Shown here piece by piece: positions 13,129 through 53,703 of a stretch of DNA of 64,000 nt. The translations under genes were made by a program, and so were the position numbers. Origin of the DNA: Desulfocurvibacter africanus subsp. africanus DSM 2603 (GTDB taxonomy: Bacteria; Desulfobacterota; Desulfovibrionia; Desulfovibrionales; Desulfovibrionaceae); the NCBI RefSeq assembly GCF_000422545.1, contig NZ_KE383873.1:1-64000 (forward strand), read 5' to 3'. The notes below the pieces were generated by a model that worked only from the letters and a program-made list of their open reading frames with translations, was not told where the DNA came from and searched no databases. The number at the start of each line of letters is the position of its first letter. Position 1 is the stretch's first letter.

Positions 13129-15378
13129 TTATGCGTCCGCGAACCCCAGCAGCTTTTCGAGTCCCTGCACGACCGCCAGTTCGGCGCGGCGCTGCCAGTA
13201 GACATTCTGCGCGGGATACAGGTCCACGGACAGTCCGATGGCCGCGGCGCGAGTGATCACGCCGGGCGCGGCCGAGGGAGATGTAGCCAGCAACTCCAGA
13301 AGGCGCTCCTGAACTCGCTGAGCCAGGAGCAGGACAGCCGGGTTGTTGCGGCCGGCTTGGCTCAGGAATGCCACCAAATTCTCTTCCGCTCCCAAGGCGG
13401 CAGCATCGCCCACGATGTAGCGCCAAGCCAGGGGCGAATAGAGCCTGGCCCAGGCGTTGCCCGCGTTCTGGGTCGTCTGGGCCTCCTGCCAAGGCATGAA
13501 CATGGCCGCCGCGGGCAGGCAGGAATTTACGGCGCACAACCAGGCCGTGCGTTCGGCGTGCTCGACCCAGGTGATGGCCAGGGCTTGGCGCTTGTTCCAG
13601 GGCAGCGCGCCAGGTTTGGTCTCCAGCGCCCGGGCGCCATTTCTGCCGCGGACATCCACTTGCCAGGCCATGGGATCGTTTGCGGGCTCACGATGCAGGA
13701 CGAGGTCGTACTCTTCGCGGCCAGACTCGCGCGCCCATTGCACACTCATGGCGAACCGGCCGGGAAAGGTCTTACCCGTGAGCGTCACGGCCACGCCGGG
13801 CCAGCTGGCCGTATTCCGCAAACCATTGCCGGGCAGCCGGTCTGTGCCCCACAGGTCGAGCACGGCCTGGGCCGCCAGGCTTTCGGGCGTTTCGCAGCGA
13901 GGCAGAATCTCGCGCCGCCAGAGGTCGGCGCCCGTGCCCACGCCGGGCATGTTGGATACGGCCCTGGACAGGATGGCGGCGATTTCGTCCTGCAGCCGTT
14001 CCAGATCGGGCATGCCGCTCATCCTGCCGATATCCAGGCTACGCAAGGCCATACTTAGGGCGTTGACCGGCTCGATGCGCGAAAGCTCGTCAAAAAACCA
14101 GGCACAGCTGGCGAAGGCGGCCAGCGCCCATTGCTGCATGGACAGGAGCTTCCAGCCCGTGGCCCGCTCGGTCGAAGACAAGTCCGGCGAAAAGTGCTGC
14201 CGCTCGAAGGCGTCCAGGTCCGCCGCGCCGGTGTAAACCCGGCCGTAATCCACCAACGCCGCGCGGGAATCAAGGAACAGGCCATGGCCACGGGAGAAGT
14301 AGTGTTTGTCCACGCGCGCCTTGATCAGATCCAGAGACTTGCGCAGGGGCGCGCGCCACTGTTGGTTCCAGCCGTGATGGCCCCCGGTGGAACAGCCGCA
14401 GTCGCTGCGCCAGCGTTCCACGCCATGCACGCAGCTCCACGAGCTGGGCTCGTGCAACTGGACCTCCAGGGTCGGCGGATTGGCCGCGAGGTAAGCTCCG
14501 AAATTGGTGATGGACCAGCCGTCGCGACCTCCACGGGCCTGGTCCAGCACATAAGCCAGGGCCATTTCGCCGAAGGTGAAGTGGTGGCCGTAGGTCTCGC
14601 CGTCAGTAGCCAGAGCCCGCAGGCCGTCGTGAGCGCCGCCGCCTATGCGCTGCCAGAAACCTTCACCGTTCTGCAGCAACCGCTCGAAGGCCACGGCCTG
14701 GGATAGGGGACCGTCATAGAAGAAGACGGAGATGGAATTTCCCGAAGGCAGGCGGACTAGGTAGGGCCGGGTCACGTCCAATGATCCCTCGTGCGCTGGC
14801 GTCCACTGCTGATCCGTCGTCGAAAGGCGGCGCACGGCTTTGGCTTGACGCGGTGCAAGGACCGTATACGCGATGCCGTAAGCCGCCAGCACCTCCAAGG
14901 ACGCAGTGTCCACGGCGGCCTCGGCCAACCACATGCCTTCGGGCGGCCGGCCGAAACGGCGCTCGAAGTCGGCTTTGCCCCAAGCCACTTGCAGCTCCTT
15001 GTCCAACTCCGAAGCCAGCGGCAGGATGATGTGGTGACAGACCTGGGCCATGGCGTTGCCGTGGCCCAGACGCTCGGCGCTTCTCCTGTCGCCTTCAACA
15101 ATGCGGGCGTAGACGTCAGGGTGGGTCAGTTCCATCCAGCGCAGCAGGGTAGGGCCGACATTGAAGTTGATCCACTCGTAGCAGTTCATGATCTCGGTGA
15201 TGCGGCCTTGGCCGTCCATGCGCCGGGCGAAGGCCAGCGGGCCGTAGCTCTCGCGGCAGATGCGTTCGTTCCAGTGTTTATACGGCGCGGCGCTGCCCTC
15301 GGGCAGGATCACGTCCAGCCAGGGATCCTCGCGGGGCGGCTGGTAGAAGTGGCCGTGGATGCAAAGTGATTTGCTCAT
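13129..15378 (-). CDS. Glycoside hydrolase family 57 protein with DUF3536 C-terminus
   Basis: A 749-residue cytoplasmic protein. The N-terminus has the GH57 hallmark KSLCIHGHFYQPPREDPW (His-x-His in the first strand) and the region around MNCYEWINFNVGPTLL. GH57 enzymes act on alpha-glucans (amylase, branching enzyme, 4-alpha-glucanotransferase). The long C-terminal half matches the DUF3536 arrangement I recall for large GH57 proteins of delta-proteobacteria. The start at MSKSLCIHG is supported by GGAG five bases upstream; the open frame upstream has no family-like sequence. It stands as a single gene, with repeat copy 4 about 115 bp past its 3' end. Substrate is not certain. Confidence 0.88.
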   Translation of the reverse strand: MSKSLCIHGHFYQPPREDPWLDVILPEGSAAPYKHWNERICRESYGPLAFARRMDGQGRITEIMNCYEWINFNVGPTLLRWMELTHPDVYARIVEGDRRSAERLGHGNAMAQVCHHIILPLASELDKELQVAWGKADFERRFGRPPEGMWLAEAAVDTASLEVLAAYGIAYTVLAPRQAKAVRRLSTTDQQWTPAHEGSLDVTRPYLVRLPSGNSISVFFYDGPLSQAVAFERLLQNGEGFWQRIGGGAHDGLRALATDGETYGHHFTFGEMALAYVLDQARGGRDGWSITNFGAYLAANPPTLEVQLHEPSSWSCVHGVERWRSDCGCSTGGHHGWNQQWRAPLRKSLDLIKARVDKHYFSRGHGLFLDSRAALVDYGRVYTGAADLDAFERQHFSPDLSSTERATGWKLLSMQQWALAAFASCAWFFDELSRIEPVNALSMALRSLDIGRMSGMPDLERLQDEIAAILSRAVSNMPGVGTGADLWRREILPRCETPESLAAQAVLDLWGTDRLPGNGLRNTASWPGVAVTLTGKTFPGRFAMSVQWARESGREEYDLVLHREPANDPMAWQVDVRGRNGARALETKPGALPWNKRQALAITWVEHAERTAWLCAVNSCLPAAAMFMPWQEAQTTQNAGNAWARLYSPLAWRYIVGDAAALGAEENLVAFLSQAGRNNPAVLLLAQRVQERLLELLATSPSAAPGVITRAAAIGLSVDLYPAQNVYWQRRAELAVVQGLEKLLGFADA

Positions 15379-15629
15379 TATATCTCCATCCTGGTCCGCT
15401 GACGCTGGGAAGCATGCCGGGAAACGGCGGTTGCTGCGGGCATTCGACTCCTGCCGGGCAGGCCGGCAGGGAGGCAGTCCGGAAGCATCGACTGTTCTGC
15501 GTGTCAGGACTCTATGATTTCGGGGCGGATCGTCCCTCACAATGCAGAAAACATGCCCTTCGGGGGCTTGGCGCCTGGAAACGTCTCTTACAGTCCGGCG
15601 TGTCGCCTGGAGCTAATCACTTAAGGGGC
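15379..15629. other. Intergenic region, no gene seen
   Basis: About 250 bp between the start of the GH57 gene and the end of the Rossmann-PAS kinase, both on the minus strand. It should carry the GH57 promoter, but no hexamer pair or hairpin with T-run was convincing by eye. Confidence 0.4.
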
Positions 15630-17144
15630 TTAGCCGGAGTGGTCGCCCGCCAGCACGGGCTGGAAGAGCAGCGTAACCGTGGTGCCCTGGCCCTCCTTGC
15701 TGGAGATATCCACCAAACCGCCGGACTCTTCGATCATCTTTTTGATCATGGCCAAGCCCAGACCGTAGCCTTTGTCCTTGGTTGTGAAGAATGGGCTGAA
15801 GGCCTGCTCCAGCTGCGCCTGGGTCATGCCCTTGCCCGTGTCGCGGATGTCCAGGAACACATGCGGTTCGGTGCGGCCGGCGCTGATGCCGATGGTGCCT
15901 CCGTGCTCCATGGCCTCGATGGAGTTCTTGATGATGTTGATGAGGCACTGCTTGATCATCTCGGGTTCGCCCATGATCAGCGGAAGATCGGGCTCGAAGG
16001 TCGTGACGAACTCGATGCCCTGCTTGCGGTAGCCCATGCTCATGAGCTCCACGGTTTCCATGGTCACGGCCTGCAGGTCGGTTTGGGCCACCGTGACGCG
16101 GGCAGGCCGGGCGAAGTTGAGGATGCTGGTCAACATGTGGTCCAGGCGCTTGGTTTCCTCCGCGATGATCTGGAGCTTCTCGTGTTCCTTGCCGGAAAGG
16201 CACTTCGACTTGAGCAGGGAATTGGTGAATCCGGCGATGGCGAACAGGGGATTGCGTATCTCATGGGCCAGGAAGGTGGACATCTCGCCGATTATAGCCA
16301 GCTTTTCGGCCTGCTGGCGCATGCGCTCCCGCCGTGTGCGCTCGGTGATGTCCCGCCGCATGACCATGATATGCGAGACAGCTCCGCTCGAATCGCGAAT
16401 GGGATACGAGTAGACGCGAAAATAGCGCAGGTGCCCTTCGGCATCCACGCGGGTCATGAGGGCCTCGGACTTCTGGCCGGTTTCCCGCGTGATCAGGAAA
16501 GGGCACTTGGGGTCCATGGCCGAACAGAAGGGAAGGCCGTCTTCAAGGGTCTGCACCTTCCAGCAGGGTTGGCCATTCAATTTTTCCTTGGACAGGCCCC
16601 GACGGTCGCAGACGCTTCGGTTGGCGTCCACCACATTGCCCTTGAGATCCAGGAGCATGATGTCCTCGCGCACCTCGTCGATGATGGCCTGCAGTAAAGC
16701 CTGGTGCTCCTGCAGGTTGATCCGGCAGTGCGTGCTGGTCTGGGCCATGGTGTGCAGACCGCAGACGAATACGGCCATGGAGTGGTCCAGAAGCGAGGTA
16801 TGCGCGGGCAAGGCCTGGCGGAGTGTATTGCGCAGGAACCGGTTGCCGGTGAATTCCGCCACCAGGTCCAGGTCCGGATTTTTGTCCAGCAGATCCTTCC
16901 AGTCGGCGTGAATGGGAATGTTGCGGTTCTTGAGGGCCTTGAGCTTGGGGCTGGCCGGATTGGGTTCGGCCACGCCTACCAGCCGCATATTGGGCAGGAA
17001 TTCGCGGTACTGCTCGTTGAAGATGACGGCCAGGAAAGACAGGAAGCCCGGGCCGGTGCCAATGATGCCGACCTTGAACTCCCGATCCTCTGTCTCCCAG
17101 AGGCAGTAGTAGTCGGACTGAAGGCATCCGTTGTCAGGACACAT
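15630..17144 (-). CDS. PAS sensor histidine kinase with an N-terminal Rossmann (dinucleotide-binding) domain
   Basis: A 504-residue soluble kinase. Residues about 22-145 look like a Gfo/Idh-type NAD(P)-binding fold: KVGIIGTGPGF glycine motif at about 25-34, an acidic strand end (LVGVAEPNP) near 55-63 and an IPIHADWKDLLDKNPDLDLV stretch typical of such oxidoreductases. A PAS domain (about 148-265) follows, with three cysteines (CW, FCS, KCP). The kinase core has the phospho-acceptor His at about 294 (LAHEIRNPL), an N-box (IIKNSIEAM), and G-boxes (DTGKGM, GYGLGLAMIKKM). No membrane segment is seen, so it senses a cytoplasmic signal. The start at MCPDNGC has GGCGGAG upstream. No response regulator is adjacent. 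Confidence 0.87.
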   Translation of the reverse strand: MCPDNGCLQSDYYCLWETEDREFKVGIIGTGPGFLSFLAVIFNEQYREFLPNMRLVGVAEPNPASPKLKALKNRNIPIHADWKDLLDKNPDLDLVAEFTGNRFLRNTLRQALPAHTSLLDHSMAVFVCGLHTMAQTSTHCRINLQEHQALLQAIIDEVREDIMLLDLKGNVVDANRSVCDRRGLSKEKLNGQPCWKVQTLEDGLPFCSAMDPKCPFLITRETGQKSEALMTRVDAEGHLRYFRVYSYPIRDSSGAVSHIMVMRRDITERTRRERMRQQAEKLAIIGEMSTFLAHEIRNPLFAIAGFTNSLLKSKCLSGKEHEKLQIIAEETKRLDHMLTSILNFARPARVTVAQTDLQAVTMETVELMSMGYRKQGIEFVTTFEPDLPLIMGEPEMIKQCLINIIKNSIEAMEHGGTIGISAGRTEPHVFLDIRDTGKGMTQAQLEQAFSPFFTTKDKGYGLGLAMIKKMIEESGGLVDISSKEGQGTTVTLLFQPVLAGDHSG

Positions 17145-17299
17145 GGTGCTCCGCCTTGGTTGCCTGGGTTGCGGCCGATCATTTGACTGAGCTTGGATAA
17201 CTTTTCCCAAATACTGGAGAAAAAAACAATCGGAATCAGGATGCGGGGAAGTGTCGGCTTCGTTGCGTCCTTGGAATCGTCGCTTTCAGATCATACATG

Positions 17300-17331
17300 A
17301 AAAAACGGGCCGGATCATATGACCCGGCCCG
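17300..17331 (-). terminator. Rho-independent terminator of lon
   Basis: On the minus strand CGGGCCGGGTCAT pairs with ATGATCCGGCCCG (one G-T pair) and is followed by TTTTTT. It lies about 30 bp past the lon stop codon and upstream of the kinase gene, separating the two transcription units. Confidence 0.9.
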
Positions 17332-17362
17332 CTTGAGCATGCGAATTGACGGTTTTCTAAGC

Positions 17363-19864
17363 CTAGGCCCTTGCTTCGGGTTTCTGCTCACCCTTGGTCT
17401 CGGGCGTGGGGGCTCCCGGCTTGCGCTTGGCCTTGCGCTTTTCGCAGGCCAGGGGCCAGATCTCGTCGATGAGTTCAACAGGCTTGATGGTGATCTTCCT
17501 GAGCAACTCGGCTGGGATGTCCTGCAGGTCCTTCTCGTTGGCCTTGGGGATGATGACCCACTTGATGCCTTGGGATACGGCGGCCAGGATCTTCTCTTTG
17601 ATCCCGCCCACGGGCAGCACGCGGCCGCGCAGGGTGATCTCGCCGGTCATGGCCACATCGCTGCACACGCGCGTGCCCGTGAGAGCCGAGATGAGCGCGG
17701 TGACGAGCGTCACGCCGGCCGAGGGGCCGTCCTTGGGTGTCGCGCCCGCGGGTACGTGGATATGGATGTCGTTCTTGTCCGAGAAGTCGGCATCGATGCC
17801 CAACTTAGCGGCCCGGCTGCGCGCATAGGACAGGGCGGCCTGGGCCGACTCCTTCATCACTTCGCCCAACTGGCCCGTAAGGGTCAGGCGGCCCTTGCCA
17901 GGCATGGTCGAGATCTCGATGTGCAGGATCTCGCCGCCATAAGGCGTCCAGGCCAGGCCCGTGGCAACGCCCGGAGGCAGATCCTTCTCGCGCTCCTCGG
18001 CGCGGAAGGGCGGGATGCCGAGCATCTTGGGCAACACATTGGCCGTGACCTTGAAGGGACCTTCCTTGCCCTCGGCCTTCTTGCGCGCCAGCTTGCGGCA
18101 CACGGAGCCAAGTTCCCGCTCCAGGTTGCGCAGGCCAGCCTCGCGTGTGTACTCGCGGATGACCTTGGCGATGACCTGGTCGGTGATTTGCACCTCGTCC
18201 TCGGAAAGGCCGTTCTCTTTGGCTTGACGCGGCACGAGATAGGTGCGGGCGATCTTGACCTTGTCGCTCTCGGTGTAGCCCGGGATGCGGATGATCTCCA
18301 TACGGTCGCGCAGCGGTCCGGGAATTGTGTCGAGCACGTTGGACGTGCAGATGAACATGACCTTGGACAGGTCGAAGGGCACGTTCAGGTAGTGGTCCTG
18401 GAAAGTATAATTCTGTTCCGGATCAAGCACCTCAAGGAGTGCCGAGGACGGATCGCCGCGGAAGTCGGTGCCCACCTTGTCGATTTCGTCCAGCATGATG
18501 ATCGGGTTTTTGGTGCCGGCCTGCTTGATGGACTGGATGATGCGGCCTGGCATGGAGCCGATGTACGTGCGCCGGTGGCCGCGAATCTCGGCCTCGTCGC
18601 GCATGCCGCCCAAACTCATGCGCACGAACTGGCGGCCCAGGGAGCGCGCGATGGAACGGCCCAGCGAGGTCTTGCCCACGCCCGGGGGGCCAACAAAGCA
18701 GAGAATGGGACCCTTCATCTTGGGATTCAGCTTGCGTACCGACAGGTATTCGAGGATGCGCTCCTTGACCTTGTCCAGGCCGTAGTGATCCTCGTCCAGT
18801 ATTCTCTGAGCTTCCTTGATGTCCAGGCGATCCTTGGACATTTTCTTCCAGGGCAGCTCGACCATCCAGTCGAGATAGGTGCGGATGACGCTGGCCTCGG
18901 AGGAGTCGGGGTGCATGGACTCCATGCGCCGCAGCTGCTTCTCGGCCTCGGAACGAACTTCCTTGGGCATGCCTGCTTTGGCGATGGCCTCGCGCAGCTG
19001 ATCGGCTTCCTCGGACTCCTCGCCGGTCTCACCCAGCTCGCGGCGGATGGCCTTCATCTGTTCGCGCAGGAAAAAGTCTTTCTGGGCCTTGTCCATGCCT
19101 TCTTTGGCCATGGACTGGATCTTGGCCTGCATGGAGGCTACTTCGACCTCCTTGGCCAGCTGGTCGTTGACCAACTGCAGGCGCTTGACCGGCTCCACGC
19201 ATTCAAGAATGGCCTGGGCGTCCTCAACCTTGACGCGCAGGTTGGAAGCGATGAGGTCGGCCAGCCGCCCGGGCTCTTCCACACTGCCGAGTACCGCGGT
19301 GATGTCGGGCGAAGAGATGCCGCGCAGCTGCATTATCTTTTCGCTCTGCTCGCGCGAGGCGCGCATGAGCGCCTCAACCTCGGGGCCATGCTCAACCAGA
19401 GCCGGCTCCTCGATGGGCTGAATCTCGGCCATGTGGTGCTTCTCGCCTTCGTGGAAGGCGGTCACCCGCGCACGGGACAGGCCCTGCACGAGCACCTTGA
19501 GCCGGCCGTCCGGCATCTTGAGCATGCGCATGATCATGGCCACGGTGCCGATCTGGTGCAGATCCTGCTCGCCGGGCTCGTCCACCTTTTCGTCCTTCTG
19601 GGTCAGGATGAGAATGAAGCGGCTGGTGTTGAGCGAGGTGTCCACGGCGGCCACGGATTTCTCGCGGCCCACGAACAGGGGCAGGATCATGTAGTTGAAG
19701 ACCACGATGTCGCGCACGGGCAGCACGGGCAGCTCGCTGGGTATCTCGAGCTGGCTCGTGTCAGCGCTGCCGGCCTCCGCGGGGGAGACCTCGATCATGG
19801 CCTCTTCTTCGTCGTGAGAACCGCCTTCGCTCATGGCGAGAGTGTCGTTGTATTCTTTGCTCAT
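17363..19864 (-). CDS. lon: ATP-dependent protease Lon
   Basis: An 833-residue AAA+ serine protease that degrades misfolded and regulatory proteins in the cytoplasm. The N-terminal substrate-binding LON domain begins with [20 protein letters not shown]; the AAA+ module contains Walker [10 protein letters not shown] and Walker [12 protein letters not shown]; the protease domain has the catalytic Ser in [10 protein letters not shown], with the Lys partner near [10 protein letters not shown]. The first ~40 residues are an acidic tail extension and the C-terminus has a short Lys/Glu/Pro-rich tail. A TTAAGGAG site precedes the ATG. It is a single-gene unit with its own terminator. Confidence 0.97.
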
Positions 19865-43026: not shown

Positions 43027-44460
43027 TTAGCGGCGGATCAGGCCGTGCTTTTTGAGCTTGTATTGCAGGGTGCGCCGGCTGATGCCCAGGGCGTCGGCGG
43101 TGCGCTCGCGGTGACCGTCATGCGCCTCCAGCGCCTGGACCAGGGCTTGGCGCTCGGCTTCGTCCAAGGATGAATCGAACGGTCCGGCGAGTACCGGAGA
43201 GTGTTCCGGCGAATCCTGGAGCGCACGCGTTTCGCGCTCCACGAGGACCTCGCGGTCAAGGCTGGCCTCGCGCACATGGGCCGGCAGCAGGTCGGGCGTG
43301 AGCACGTCGGCACGGGCCAGGATGAGCGCTCGCTCCAGCACATTCTCCAATTCGCGCACGTTGCCCGGCCAATCATGGCCGGAGAGCGCTTCCAGGAAAT
43401 CGGGCGAGACCGTGCGCACTTCCTTGCGGTTCTTGCGGCCCAGCTTGCGCAAAAGATAGCTGGTCAGTATGGGCAGATCCTCCAGCCGCTCGCGCAGGGG
43501 GGGGATGCGCAGCTCCAGGACATTGAGCCGAAAGAAGAGATCCTCGCGAAAGCGGCCCTCGCGCACCTCCTGCCGCAGGTCGCGATTGGTGGCCGCGATG
43601 ATGCGCACATCCGTCTCCACGGAACGCACCGAGCCCAGGGGCTCCACCACGCGTTCCTGGATGGCGCGCAGGAGCTTGGGCTGCAACTGCAGGGGCAGCT
43701 CCCCGATTTCGTCCAGGAAGAGCGTGCCGCCTTGAGCTAGTTGAAAGCGCCCCGGCTTGTCCTTGACCGCGCCGGTGAACGCGCCGCGTACGTAGCCGAA
43801 CAGCTCGCTTTCCAGTAAATCCGCGGGCAGGGCCGCGCAGTTGACCTTGACCAGCGGGCCGTTCTTGCGGCCGCTCAAGGCGTGCAGCCGCTCGGCCACG
43901 AGTTCCTTGCCCGTGCCCGACTCACCCAGGATGAGCACCGTGGCCTCGCTGGGTGCCACCTGCTCGATAAGCTCTTCCAGCCGGCGCATGGCCGGGCCTT
44001 GGCCGATGATCTCCGGCCCGCTCTGGATCTCCCCGCGCAGCCGCTCGTTCTCGCGCAACAGCTGGCCGTACTGCCAGGCCTTGTCCAGCACGGCTTCCAG
44101 CTCGTCGTTGTCTGCAGGTTTGGTCAGGTAGTCGTAAGCGCCTTTCTTCATGGCTTCCACGGCCGAGCCCACGCTGCCGAAGGCGGTGAGCATCACCACG
44201 GGCAGGCCCGGCCTCAGTTCGCGCAGAGAGCGCAGGATGGCCAGTCCGTCCATGTCCGGCAGGCGCATGTCCAGGAGCACCACATCGGGAGCGGGCCCGG
44301 AGCGCAGGATGCGCAGGGCCGAGCCGCCGTCGGCCGCCTCGGCTACGCGCCAGCCGTTGTCTTCCAGCACGGCCCGGACCATGAGCCTGTGGCCCGGTTC
44401 GTCGTCCACCACGAGGACGCTTCGTTCATCCTGGATCTCGTCGCCTTGCGCAGTCGTCAT
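43027..44460 (-). CDS. Sigma-54-dependent response regulator (NtrC/ZraR family)
   Basis: A 477-residue transcription activator. The N-terminal receiver has the acidic pair VVDDE and phospho-Asp in VVLLDMRLPDMDG; the central AAA+ domain has Walker A GESGTGKE, the sigma-54 contact loop YVRGAFTGAVKDK and Walker B LFLDEIGELPL; the C-terminal Fis-type helix-turn-helix is RTADALGISRRTLQYKLKKH. It activates promoters of the GG/GC (-24/-12) type. No kinase gene is adjacent. The Zra-like sensor kinase at 51.8-53.6 kb and the sigma-54-like promoter before the ZraP-like gene make this a plausible, unproven partner. Confidence 0.95.
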   Translation of the reverse strand: MTTAQGDEIQDERSVLVVDDEPGHRLMVRAVLEDNGWRVAEAADGGSALRILRSGPAPDVVLLDMRLPDMDGLAILRSLRELRPGLPVVMLTAFGSVGSAVEAMKKGAYDYLTKPADNDELEAVLDKAWQYGQLLRENERLRGEIQSGPEIIGQGPAMRRLEELIEQVAPSEATVLILGESGTGKELVAERLHALSGRKNGPLVKVNCAALPADLLESELFGYVRGAFTGAVKDKPGRFQLAQGGTLFLDEIGELPLQLQPKLLRAIQERVVEPLGSVRSVETDVRIIAATNRDLRQEVREGRFREDLFFRLNVLELRIPPLRERLEDLPILTSYLLRKLGRKNRKEVRTVSPDFLEALSGHDWPGNVRELENVLERALILARADVLTPDLLPAHVREASLDREVLVERETRALQDSPEHSPVLAGPFDSSLDEAERQALVQALEAHDGHRERTADALGISRRTLQYKLKKHGLIRR

Positions 44461-49264: not shown

Positions 49265-51412
49265 CTAACTTTGGCCCAGGGCGCGGCCCTTTAAAGCCTC
49301 GCGCACGGAGCGCAGCAACTCTTCGCGGCCAAAGGGCTTGGGCAGGAAACCGGTCATGCCGGCATCCATGATGTTGCTGCGGTCTCCTTCCAGAGCATAG
49401 GCCGTGACCGCCACCACAGGCAGGTCGCGTGGGGTGTTTCCTGCCTGACCGGAACGAATGCGGTTCAGGGCCTCCAGTCCATCCATGAGCGGCATCTGGA
49501 TGTCCATGAGCACCAGATCCACATGTTCTCTGGCCAGCAAATCCAAGGCTTCCTGGCCGTCGCAGGCCTCCAGCACGCGCAAACCCTCGCGCTCCAGGAG
49601 ATGGCGCACCATGAGCCGGTTGGTGGCCTCGTCCTCGGCATGCAGCACCGTGGTCCTCTCGGGCATGGCCAACCCCAGTGGTTTGGTCGACTTCTTGGTT
49701 GCGGGTTGTATCGCGCGGGGCAAGCTGATCGTGAAGTGGAACAGGCTGCCACGGCCGACGGAGCTCTCGGCCTCGATGCGCCCGCCCAGCTTGCTCACGA
49801 TGTGCTTGGCTATGGCCAATCCCAAGCCTGCGCCTCCGTAGCGCTTGGTCAGATAGTTCTCGCCCAGGTTGAAGCCCTCGAAAACCTCAGCCAGCTTGTC
49901 ATTGGGGATGCCGATGCCCGTGTCGGAAACAAGGAATGTGACGGGCAAGGCCGCACCGTCCTGTCTATCCTTCTCGGCCAGGCGCACCTCCAACCGTACC
50001 GAGCCCGACTCCGTGAACTTGACCGCGTTGTCCAGGAGGTTGATGAGCACTTGCTTGAGGCGCAATTCGTCTCCCAGGAATTGGCCGGATAGGGCCGGGT
50101 CCACGCTGGCCGAGAAATCCAAGCCCTTGAGCCGCGCGCGCACGGAGAAGAAGCGCGCGACCGAATCCACTGCTTCGGCCAGGCCGAAGGGTCGACTGAT
50201 GGGTTCGAAGCGCTTACGCTCAAGGGTGGACAGCTCCAGCAGGTCGTTCACGAGCCCTAGCAGATCATGGGCCGAGGCGCGAGCCAGCTCCAGAAAATTG
50301 CGCTCCTCCGGTTCCGAGCGGGATATGAGCAGCAGCTCGATCATGCCCACGATGCCGTTCAGGGGCGTGCGCAGTTCGTGGCTCATGTTGGCCAGGAACT
50401 GGGACTTGGCCCTGTCGGCAACTTCGGCTTTCTGGCGGGCCTGTACAAGCTCTTGTTCGGCTTTCTTGCGCTCGGTGATGTCCAGCGAGAAGCCGCCCAC
50501 ACCCTCCACCAGACCTGACTCGTTGAGAACCGGAAACAGGATGGTGTCGAAGCAGCGCAGGACGCCGCCCAGATAAAGCTTGTCTTCAATGCGCAGCGGC
50601 TTGCCAGATTCAGCAACCTGCCGCATGTACTCGAGGAAAGACCGAGCTTTCTCCTCACCGAAAATCTCGCTCACGTGACGGCCCACCACATCCACATAGC
50701 GCTGGCCCATCAGCGATTCCCAATCTGGATTGACCAGGCTTAGGCGGCCGTCAAGGTCGGTGATGTGCAACGGGCACGGAATGTTATCCAGGAAGCTCCA
50801 CAGGAAGGTGTGCAGCTTGCGGTAGCGGACTTCCTTCTCCAGGTAGTCGGTCAGGTCCGTCACGATAACGTGCAGCAGATCCTTGCGGCACAGGCGGATG
50901 GGGCTGGCGATGATTTCCACGTCGCGCGGAGCGCCCTCGCGGGCCATGTGCCGCGAGATAATGCGCTGTGCGGACTTTGCATGGGACAGGGCCAATTCGG
51001 ATGGGGGCTGGCCATTTTTGGGTACGGTCAGGTCCAGGAGCTTGCTGCCGGCTATATCGTTTCGGCCGTAGAAGTCTCGGGCGCTGGCATTGGCCTCCAC
51101 GATGGCCAAGGTCCCCGGGTCCACCAGCAGCATTGGGTTCAGATTGCTGCCAAACAGGCCCTGGTAAACACGGACTTGTTCCTCGATGGATCGCCTATAA
51201 CCGCATACCAGCCTGTAGAGCACCAGAGTGGTGATGACCACGAACAGCAGGCCCTTGACCGTTTGCAGTCCCTGGGGTGGATGGTCCGCGTATAAATGAG
51301 AGAGTATGCTGTCGGAAACGAAAATCCAGGCTCCAGCCAGCAGAAAGTAGAGCAGGACGACTCGCAGGATGCCCGCATCAAGGGACATGGAAAGAGACAG
51401 CAGTTTGCGCAT
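49265..51412 (-). CDS. Hybrid sensor histidine kinase with two PAS domains and a receiver
   Basis: A 715-residue membrane-bound kinase. Two membrane helices (about 13-35 and 52-70) are followed by PAS-like domains (about 80-200 and 210-330, the second ending VGGFSLDITERKKAEQELVQ), the dimerisation domain with phospho-His in FLANMSHELRTPLNGIV, the ATP-binding domain (N-box INLLDNAVKFTES, G-boxes DTGIGIP and YGGAGLGLAIAKHI) and a C-terminal receiver with phospho-Asp in LVLMDIQMPLMDG. A further phosphotransfer protein is expected. No HPt domain or separate regulator is next to it. Confidence 0.93.
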   Translation of the reverse strand: MRKLLSLSMSLDAGILRVVLLYFLLAGAWIFVSDSILSHLYADHPPQGLQTVKGLLFVVITTLVLYRLVCGYRRSIEEQVRVYQGLFGSNLNPMLLVDPGTLAIVEANASARDFYGRNDIAGSKLLDLTVPKNGQPPSELALSHAKSAQRIISRHMAREGAPRDVEIIASPIRLCRKDLLHVIVTDLTDYLEKEVRYRKLHTFLWSFLDNIPCPLHITDLDGRLSLVNPDWESLMGQRYVDVVGRHVSEIFGEEKARSFLEYMRQVAESGKPLRIEDKLYLGGVLRCFDTILFPVLNESGLVEGVGGFSLDITERKKAEQELVQARQKAEVADRAKSQFLANMSHELRTPLNGIVGMIELLLISRSEPEERNFLELARASAHDLLGLVNDLLELSTLERKRFEPISRPFGLAEAVDSVARFFSVRARLKGLDFSASVDPALSGQFLGDELRLKQVLINLLDNAVKFTESGSVRLEVRLAEKDRQDGAALPVTFLVSDTGIGIPNDKLAEVFEGFNLGENYLTKRYGGAGLGLAIAKHIVSKLGGRIEAESSVGRGSLFHFTISLPRAIQPATKKSTKPLGLAMPERTTVLHAEDEATNRLMVRHLLEREGLRVLEACDGQEALDLLAREHVDLVLMDIQMPLMDGLEALNRIRSGQAGNTPRDLPVVAVTAYALEGDRSNIMDAGMTGFLPKPFGREELLRSVREALKGRALGQS

Positions 51413-51792: not shown

Positions 51793-53553
51793 TTAGGCCG
51801 GAGGCAGAAAGACGCGCACAACAGCGCCTCGACCTTCCTCGCTTTCGATCTCCAGATGGCCGCCGTGATCCTGCACGAGCTTGTGGGCAATGGCCAATCC
51901 CAAGCCCGTGCCTTGGGCGCGGGTTGTGAAGAACGGCTCCAGGGCATGCTCACGGGCATCGGGACTGAAGCCGCGGCCGTTGTCGGCCACGGATAGAAGT
52001 ATGTCGTTCCCGGCGGGCTCCGCAGTTACGGTTACCTGGCCTCCGGTTGCGGGCAGTGCGGCCAGGCTGTTCATGATAAGGTTGAGCAGAACCTGCTTGA
52101 GGCCGTCGGAATCGGCGTGCACGCTCGGCGTGCGGGCTTCGAAACGCAGTTCGGCCCCGGCTTTCGCGGCCTCGCCCTCCAGCAGTCGTCGCAGATCCTC
52201 GAACAGGGCCGTCGTATCCACATCCTGGGGAGTCAAGCTCTGGGGCCTGGCCAGGAAAAGCATGTCGGTAATGACTTTGTTCAGCCGGTCGGCCTCTCGG
52301 ACCATGGTCCGGGCGTATTCCTCGTCTGGCTGAACGCCCTGCAGTTTTTTGAGGAAGAATTGCGCGAAACCGCGCAGGGCCGAGAGCGGATTGCGTATCT
52401 CATGGGCCACGCCGGCGGCCAGCCGACCCACGGCGGCCAGCTTCTCGGCCTCGGCCAGGCTGCGTTCCAGGGCCTTGAGCCGCGTGCGGTCGCGCACGAG
52501 CACCAGGCTGGAACCTGGGCCATCGTCCGCTTCGCCCACTGACCGCCGTAGTACTTCCAAGCGCTTGCTTCCCAGTTCGGTTTCGGCCCAGGCTTCGCCA
52601 CCGTTTTCCTCATTGATCGCTTGCCCCAAGGGCAGCCAGTCAAGAGTTGAACCCACGAGCGTGCCTGGCGCGCGCTCCAGAATGGCGTGAGCCGCCGGGT
52701 TGGCCGCGCGCACGACGCCCTGGCCGTCGAGGCTCAACAAGCCGTCGGGCATGTCGTCCAGCAGGCGGGCGTGGAAACGCTGCAGGGCCTGATAAGCCCG
52801 AGACTGCTCGCGTCGGCGAAGATAATAGGTGAAGAAGGCCAGGAATCCGGCAGCCGCGGCCAGTATGAAACCGGTCTGGTATATGGCCGTGCGCTGGAAC
52901 TCGTTGTATAAGCCCAGGTATTCCTCCACGCCCAGGCCCATGACCAGGTACAGCACGGAAGGCCGTCGCCCGCCGGTCATGGGCTGTCCGTCAGGAGAAC
53001 GCTCAAAGCCTCGGGACTCGGGCAGGTCGTGATCCTGCATGCCTTGGCAGAAACGGGCCACGGCTGGTCTGGCACGTTGTGCCAGATACAGCACGCGCTC
53101 GCCGTTCTGCACCTGCAACGAGTACCAGAGACCCGTCTCGCGCAGCCCGCGCAATCCTTCGGCCGATAATGCAAAGGCCCTGCCGGCTTCAGGTGAGGAT
53201 GAGATGATAATGTCGCCGCTTGTATCGAGCAGGCCAAGAAAGCGTACATCGCTGTCTTGGGTCAATTCAGTCAGTAGATCAGCGGTAAGGGAAGGAAGCG
53301 GTTCGTCCATGGATCCGTGAAAGCCGCGTCGTCGCATGGAATCTGGCCCCATGCGGCGCAGGGAGCCTTGCAGATGGGCCTGCGTGGAGCGCAACACTAC
53401 CTGGGCCGAGAGGAGCATGTGCCGCATGACCAGCTCTCGCTGCTGGCGCACGCTGTTCCAGGTGGCCAGAATGAGACTCGCGGCCACGATGCCCGTGGCT
53501 GCGATGGCCACCAGCAGGGGCAGTCTCCGGCTCTGGGTGACGCTGATCTCCAT
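51793..53553 (-). CDS. ZraS-like sensor histidine kinase
   Basis: A 586-residue membrane kinase. TM1 (about 10-30) and TM2 (about 210-232) flank a periplasmic sensor region of about 175 residues; a PAS domain (about 255-345) precedes the phospho-His in AAGVAHEIRNPLSALRGFAQ and the ATP-binding domain (NLIMNSLAALP, DNGRGFSPDA, GTGLGLAIAHKLV). This layout is that of NtrB/ZraS-type kinases that control sigma-54 regulators. It is downstream of the ZraP-like gene on the same strand, separated by 206 bp that contain a long hairpin. The ATG start at MEISVTQS is preferred over a GTG two codons earlier. The likely regulator is not adjacent. Confidence 0.9.
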   Translation of the reverse strand: MEISVTQSRRLPLLVAIAATGIVAASLILATWNSVRQQRELVMRHMLLSAQVVLRSTQAHLQGSLRRMGPDSMRRRGFHGSMDEPLPSLTADLLTELTQDSDVRFLGLLDTSGDIIISSSPEAGRAFALSAEGLRGLRETGLWYSLQVQNGERVLYLAQRARPAVARFCQGMQDHDLPESRGFERSPDGQPMTGGRRPSVLYLVMGLGVEEYLGLYNEFQRTAIYQTGFILAAAAGFLAFFTYYLRRREQSRAYQALQRFHARLLDDMPDGLLSLDGQGVVRAANPAAHAILERAPGTLVGSTLDWLPLGQAINEENGGEAWAETELGSKRLEVLRRSVGEADDGPGSSLVLVRDRTRLKALERSLAEAEKLAAVGRLAAGVAHEIRNPLSALRGFAQFFLKKLQGVQPDEEYARTMVREADRLNKVITDMLFLARPQSLTPQDVDTTALFEDLRRLLEGEAAKAGAELRFEARTPSVHADSDGLKQVLLNLIMNSLAALPATGGQVTVTAEPAGNDILLSVADNGRGFSPDAREHALEPFFTTRAQGTGLGLAIAHKLVQDHGGHLEIESEEGRGAVVRVFLPPA

Positions 53554-53703
53554 GGGCACCTCTTTCTTCCTGGCGCGTAGGCTGCGGTCTTGTCCTCGCG
53601 GCGGAACTGGTCACGGCCAAGCGCTAGCGGCTTTCCGCCTATCACATCTTTCTATTTATCCAGGCCCTTTTCCGCTTGGCCGGAGAGCGCCGGCAATGCG
53701 TTG

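Follow-up and report, generated by a model that had tools for sequence, protein, structure and literature searches.

How strict anaerobes sense changes in their pools of NAD and ferredoxin, and convert them into transcription, is largely an open question. A kinase that carried the cofactor domain of a dehydrogenase would be a direct readout. A candidate of this kind is encoded in the window, the stretch of 64,000 nucleotides of Desulfocurvibacter africanus subsp. africanus DSM 2603 analysed here. Does this kinase begin with such a domain, and what might the domain sense? The genome (G000) comprises 4.4 Mb in 40 contigs and contains dsrA (612 bits, cut-off 393), which is consistent with an anaerobic sulfate reducer.

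Architecture of the kinase and fold of its N-terminal domain

The gene occupies nt 15630–17144 of the minus strand, and all features of the gene given below lie on that strand. It starts with ATG at nt 17144 and ends with the stop codon at nt 15630–15632. The 504-residue product is arranged as Rossmann domain, helix, PAS, HisKA and HATPase, according to the open reading frame, Pfam and AlphaFold2 (AF2). A GGAG at nt 17149–17152, read from the sequence, is the probable ribosome-binding site.

Judged from its sequence, the kinase core is ordinary. HATPase_c (residues 393–494, nt 15663–15968) matches Pfam at E 2e-21; N407, D435, G437, G439 and G461 of its N and G boxes are invariant across 27 sequences, and G463 completes the set. 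HisKA (residues 286–346, nt 16107–16289) matches at E 1e-11, with 45.2 bits against a cut-off of 26.9, and its phospho-acceptor H294, within AHEIRNP, is invariant in 13 of 13 aligned sequences. By these domains the protein is predicted to be a HisKA sensor histidine kinase. The PAS domain (residues about 158–271, nt 16332–16673; Pfam and AF2) matches PAS_4 at E 4e-10 (40.3 bits, cut-off 23.1) and PAS_9 at 36.7 bits (cut-off 27). It carries the cysteine triad C194, C207 and C214 (nt 16503–16565), which is invariant in 13 of 13 aligned sequences. Thus both the cysteine-bearing PAS domain and the complete kinase core of the original prediction are present. The protein was also predicted to be free of membrane helices, and this is upheld, since its one hydropathy peak (1.66, residues 25–43) coincides with strand 1 and helix 1 of the modelled Rossmann fold.

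The PAS-HisKA-HATPase core belongs to the same class as that of the AtoS/ZraS-type HisKA kinases (NCBIfam NF008468 and NF007688), whose models score 245 and 188 bits on the window kinase, far under their cut-offs of 646 and 479. Unlike these kinases, it has no membrane sensor and bears the Rossmann domain instead. When the whole protein was compared with NCBIfam, the best 25 of 88 matches were kinase models from residue 127 on, none above its own cut-off.

The Rossmann domain covers residues about 20–120 (nt 16785–17087; AF2 and structure search). With an alignment of 13 sequences, AF2 places a Rossmann beta-alpha domain at residues 23–119 (mean pLDDT 78.9; 81–95 in the blocks of residues 21–120). 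The strands, at residues 23–28, 53–59, 94–97 and 117–119, have helices between them and are followed by one long helix, residues 121–162 in this model, of which residues 121–157 (nt 16674–16784) connect the Rossmann domain to the PAS domain. The full-length model contains the same Rossmann domain, then PAS, dimerisation helices and ATPase, at pLDDT 80.1 and pTM 0.39; at this pTM the placement of the domains is unreliable.

Foldseek and VIA searches with the model grouped residues of about 20–126 with NAD(P)-dehydrogenase Rossmann domains, with a best Foldseek E of 3e-4 and VIA Z values of 9–10.2 at an rmsd of about 2.2 over about 95 residues. They include homoserine dehydrogenase (5xdf, Z 10.2), Gfo/Idh/MocA (3fd8, Z 10.1) and acylating acetaldehyde dehydrogenase (1nvm, Z 9.8, rmsd 1.9 over 95 residues). 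The 50 structure matches listed were all NAD(P)-dehydrogenase-type or Gfo/Idh-fold proteins, and no CoA-binding fold was among these 50. The model, the structure searches and the Pfam kinase core agree with the prediction of a histidine kinase with an N-terminal Rossmann domain. The glycine motif GIIGTGPGF at residues 26–34 (G29, G31, G33 and F34; nt 17043–17069) lies within this dehydrogenase-type domain, and the structure matches indicate that it is no chance match.

A Gfo/Idh-like pattern had also been proposed, and it is borne out by the fold but not by Pfam, where GFO_IDH_MocA (PF01408) scored 12.6–16.2 bits versus a cut-off of 24. NAD_binding_3 was sub-threshold as well, and no dehydrogenase model exceeded its Pfam cut-off at the N-terminus. 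CoA_binding (PF02629) was absent from the Pfam matches of the window protein, and one of 27 family members matched it at E 0.064. Matches to Phage_connect_1, ExoU_C, UL42 and AmiR_N at the N-terminus were weak and were judged to be chance. Because the domain lies under the Pfam cut-offs, routine annotation sees plain PAS kinases.

A PDB search with the single sequence gave no match. A profile of 30 phylum-wide domains matched acetaldehyde dehydrogenase 1nvm best (E 1.9e-6), followed by three further acetaldehyde dehydrogenases (1e-4 to 7e-4), then homoserine dehydrogenase and inositol dehydrogenase. Together with the fold, this match relates the domain to NAD-dehydrogenase cofactor domains by sequence too. 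The NAD-binding domain of acylating acetaldehyde dehydrogenase (1nvm, 7z3s, 8ih7, 4jn6) is the closest sequence match of the phylum profile and has the same fold. However, the catalytic half of the enzyme is absent from the window kinase, in which PAS-HisKA-HATPase follows after residue 145, and the third glycine is replaced by F or L in the window's clade. The profile of this clade alone found no dehydrogenase in PDB under E 0.85. It was led by CoA-ligase alpha subunits, none of them significant: succinyl-CoA synthetase alpha (best, E 0.035), citryl-CoA synthetase (0.4) and ATP-citrate synthase (0.6).

Distribution of the domain and gene neighbourhoods

The N-terminal domain has a single matching place in its own genome, and the other kinases of that genome align to the window kinase only from residue 101 on. 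Of 199 Desulfovibrionales genomes searched with the Rossmann domain alone, 101 contained a match. Its profile matched in at least 106 of 395 sampled Desulfobacterota genomes, a lower bound given that at most nine candidates were scored per genome. The domain heads single-PAS kinases of about 500–560 residues, longer multi-PAS kinases and 360-residue kinases without PAS (L069, L080, L084). It also occurs in tandem Rossmann-Rossmann kinases (L070, L075, L079, L082, L086, L087), whose first domain carries GxGxxG complete with its third glycine.

In the window, the kinase gene lies between a lon protease gene upstream (nt 17363–19864) and a gene for a GH57/DUF3536 protein downstream (nt 13129–15540), both on the minus strand and both outside the system. 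A strong intrinsic-terminator-like hairpin with a 14-pair stem (nt 17303–17334, minus strand) separates lon from the kinase; two such sites were found in the region, where shuffled sequences gave 1.7 on average. Lon was rejected as a functional partner because of the hairpin between the genes and because, out of 45 loci of the window's clade (type A), it adjoins the kinase in a single one, the window's own. GH57/DUF3536 is likewise found beside an A-type kinase in the window's locus only, 1 of 45. No response regulator lies next to the kinase at this locus. Since the lon and GH57 neighbours are peculiar to it, this copy of the kinase is an orphan. Translations of the window reveal further two-component genes, namely a sigma-54 regulator (43027–44460), a hybrid kinase (49265–51412) and a membrane kinase (51793–53559), none of which adjoins the Rossmann kinase.

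Outside the Desulfovibrionales, 54 loci were surveyed, comprising every kinase-type locus taken with wide flanks; they were picked by match and length of contig, regardless of neighbours. A sigma-54 response regulator lies directly downstream of the kinase in 31 of them, versus an adjacent downstream regulator in 0 of 40 Desulfovibrionales loci in the same survey. By Pfam name, the neighbours in the 54 loci include GcvH-like proteins (26), M54 peptidase (25), HdrA (13), HdrB (10) and MetV (7). At L138:1-8373, L140:12-9703 and L147–L150, a conserved HdrA-HdrB-HdrC-GcvH-like cluster is divergent from the Rossmann kinase, sigma-54 regulator and M54 peptidase; the GcvH-like protein of this cluster has 304 residues and a Cys-rich N-terminus, and MetV follows in some. 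The GcvH-like/M54/Hdr cluster was not found in the window's genome, where the only trace is a 35% GcvH-domain match in a 125-residue frame.

The neighbours differ among the 45 A-type loci, which include near-duplicates such as L047/L095: a receiver protein just upstream in 13, PPDK/PEP-utiliser in 16, NhaB in 5 and an NtrC492 regulator in 6. In Pseudodesulfovibrio-like genomes, the order PPDK/PEP-utiliser, kinase, receiver, kinase, receiver, with or without NhaB, precedes the Rossmann kinase (L045, L047, L058, L095, L097, L098, L100, L105, L110, L113, L115, L116, L120). The HK514-NtrC492 pair, which follows the Rossmann kinase in some relatives, was considered as the cognate pair and set aside, since the orthologous pair in the window's genome is on contig C40, with its own kinase.

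Dinucleotide signature, cysteines and alternative readings

The signature was examined in 140 distinct domains out of 186 aligned rows. Group A is the clade of the window protein (52 domains), group B consists of eroded paralogues from Desulfovibrionales (7) and group C of domains from other Desulfobacterota (64); T1 is the first domain of tandem pairs (11), and S comprises stand-alone domains (6). The labels A and B were assigned by match strength and motif, and the members of B do not form a single clade in the tree. There A and B are joined apart from C (SH-aLRT 94), and B appears as one branch of six rows plus L054, placed inside A.

The first glycine, G29, is kept in 52/52 of A, 6/7 of B, 64/64 of C, 11/11 of T1 and 6/6 of S. 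G31 is kept in 51/52, 1/7, 63/64, 11/11 and 6/6, respectively, and G33 in 46 of the 52 A domains. In NAD-binding Rossmann domains, an acidic residue at the end of strand 2 anchors the NAD ribose. The residue at this place is E60 in the window protein (nt 16965–16967), and position 60 is D or E in 23/52 of A, 0/7 of B, 63/64 of C, 11/11 of T1 and 6/6 of S; thus 29 of the 52 A domains are non-acidic here, while the window protein itself keeps the acid. At position 34, 51 of 52 A domains have F (37) or L (14), 60 of 64 C domains have C or G, and all T1 and S domains have G. Compared with GxGxxG, the window's GTGPGF has the first two glycines and F at the third position. These counts indicate that the wider family keeps the classic dinucleotide signature strictly, whereas the window clade has lost part of it and B has lost it. 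Conservation of the glycine motif in orthologues therefore holds for 51 of the 52 members of subfamily A but breaks down in the paralogous group B.

Two cysteines are specific to subfamily A. C14 (nt 17103–17105) corresponds to a Cys 15–16 residues ahead of G29 in 52/52 A domains; any Cys within 8–22 residues ahead of G29 occurs in only 4 of 64 C domains. C128 (nt 16761–16763) is Cys in 52/52 of A, and the position is W in 38 of 64 of C.

The glycines and the PAS cysteines were compared in single-domain kinases, 87 in all (51 of group A, 7 of B and 29 of C). Both GxG and the three-Cys pattern are found in 75, GxG only in six, the triad only in none, and neither in six (Fisher 1.8e-6, with kinship ignored). 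The six GxG-only kinases are three A members with cysteines at other spacing, two C members without such PAS sequence there, and L041 of group B. All six proteins that lost the glycines are also without the triad. Among the Desulfovibrionales paralogues (L041, L046, L048, L055, L056, L057, L054), the glycine motif is gone in six of seven distinct sequences, and the triad is absent in seven of seven. The losses on one B branch and separately in L054 amount to few events, at least two. From this pattern, the Rossmann and Cys-PAS modules seem to work together.

The domain of the Desulfovibrionales could instead be a structural or dimerisation unit that has ceased to bind a dinucleotide, with C14, C128 and the PAS triad sensing via disulfide, metal or Fe-S. 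We consider this unlikely. The strict invariance of C14 and C128 in the window clade alone, the erosion of the acid after strand 2, the F/L at the third glycine and the invariance of the PAS cysteines would all fit such a unit. On the other hand, a structural unit has no obvious need for the three glycines kept in nearly the whole clade, E60 is retained in the window protein, and the glycines are lost jointly with the PAS cysteines.

Less probable still is a domain that binds another ligand, such as CoA or acyl-CoA, and reports the carbon or acyl state. The best PDB rows of the clade-only profile, the single family member matching CoA_binding and the PPDK/PEP-utiliser genes near 16 of 45 Desulfovibrionales loci point in this direction, and acylating acetaldehyde dehydrogenase, the nearest enzyme relative, makes acetyl-CoA. 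Yet all CoA-type scores are non-significant, the 50 structure matches listed are of the dehydrogenase or Gfo/Idh type, and what the phylum profile finds is dehydrogenases instead of CoA ligases. It is very improbable that the N-terminal domain has decayed and lost all function, leaving an ordinary PAS histidine kinase: the likeness of PAS and kinase core to AtoS/ZraS-type kinases and the lack of a dehydrogenase Pfam model over cut-off would suit it, but kinases across Desulfobacterota begin with this conserved domain, its glycines are almost invariant, and it occurs in several architectures.

Proposed sensing mechanism and known analogues

The reading we favour, with moderate confidence, is a soluble redox- or cofactor-sensing histidine kinase of the cytoplasm, in which a non-catalytic Rossmann input is coupled to a Cys-PAS. 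It would be one of a large kinase family in sulfate-reducer-type bacteria that probably reports redox state inside the cell. The first input, the Rossmann domain, would descend from the half of an NAD(P)-dependent dehydrogenase that binds the cofactor, the nearest types being acylating acetaldehyde dehydrogenase, homoserine dehydrogenase and Gfo/Idh. The second would be the PAS domain with its conserved set of three cysteines. The Rossmann domain would bind a nucleotide cofactor; NAD(H) is the likeliest ligand for the ancestral family and a possible one for the window protein. Occupancy of the domain, or the redox form of the cofactor, may alter the long helix into PAS. The PAS triad, together with C14 and C128, may relay redox state by thiol, metal or Fe-S chemistry. 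Both inputs together would set autophosphorylation of H294, and phosphotransfer to an unlinked response regulator would follow. Points against this reading, besides those on NAD(H) given next, are the Pfam dehydrogenase scores under cut-off, the small number of linked losses, the missing downstream regulator in the 40 Desulfovibrionales loci and the neighbours peculiar to the window's locus.

Direct NAD(H) binding by the window protein is a plausible proposal. Doubt about it in the clade comes from the eroded acid, the F/L at position 34 and the clade-only profile led by CoA-ligase alpha subunits. The coupling of redox or dinucleotide state to phosphorylation that was first proposed is therefore supported in part: the dehydrogenase-type Rossmann domain, the glycines, the Cys-PAS and the full-signature relatives near sigma-54/Hdr genes argue for it, whereas the window's own clade, with its acid in 23 of 52, its F/L and its CoA-ligase-led profile, and the paralogous group without the glycines argue against it.

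The ancestral role was probably to report the electron-carrier state to energy-metabolism genes, as indicated by the sigma-54 activator next door, partly beside heterodisulfide-reductase genes, outside the Desulfovibrionales. That electron-carrier state is the signal is suggested by the Hdr and MetV genes near kinases of the wider family, a case of guilt by association in other orders of the phylum. A more far-reaching proposal, which we offer tentatively and regard as rather doubtful, is a phylum-wide, as yet unnamed family of cytoplasmic kinases that would read the NAD(H) pool directly via a captured acetaldehyde-dehydrogenase-type domain and Cys-PAS, and would control HdrABC/MetVF-type electron-bifurcating machinery through the sigma-54 regulator. 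The Desulfovibrionales domain would then be in the course of rewiring from dinucleotide to thiol sensing, with the acid lost and C14 and C128 gained. The family provides a natural experiment: some members have the full signature and lie by hdrABC, others are eroded but have gained cysteines, and the paralogues have lost both modules.

The fold of the window domain is common to the Gfo/Idh/MocA oxidoreductases and Gal80 (3btu, VIA Z 9.3). Gal80 is a non-catalytic regulator of the Gfo/Idh/MocA fold that responds to NAD(P); unlike the window protein, it is a transcriptional regulator of yeast, not a kinase. Rex and ArcB report redox state, as proposed for the window kinase. Rex does so via a Rossmann domain, which the window kinase shares, but acts as a repressor, and the signal of ArcB is quinones, sensed at the membrane. 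KidO of Caulobacter is an NADH-binding oxidoreductase homologue that regulates a two-component pathway (PMC7083601). It is a separate protein acting in trans, whereas the Rossmann domain of the window is part of the kinase. Regulators of this kind, which bind a dinucleotide and act in trans, are the nearest working analogues of the window kinase. Among the titles and abstract beginnings of the open-access literature, we found no description of a histidine kinase of sulfate reducers that combines Rossmann and PAS domains.

The domain also occurs outside kinases. In L068 and L066 it stands directly at the head of sigma-54 activators that have no kinase part, which suggests that one input module has been joined to a different output. 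Stand-alone Rossmann proteins of 128–157 residues without a kinase are encoded at L121:3623-4042, L122:3647-4039, L123:3443-3859, L124:3625-4017, L125:3579-3962 and L126:2806-3276. The L125 protein has no Pfam match. These proteins are possibly sensors acting in trans; all six carry the full GxGxxG and E60, and they have a common tail ending in GY.
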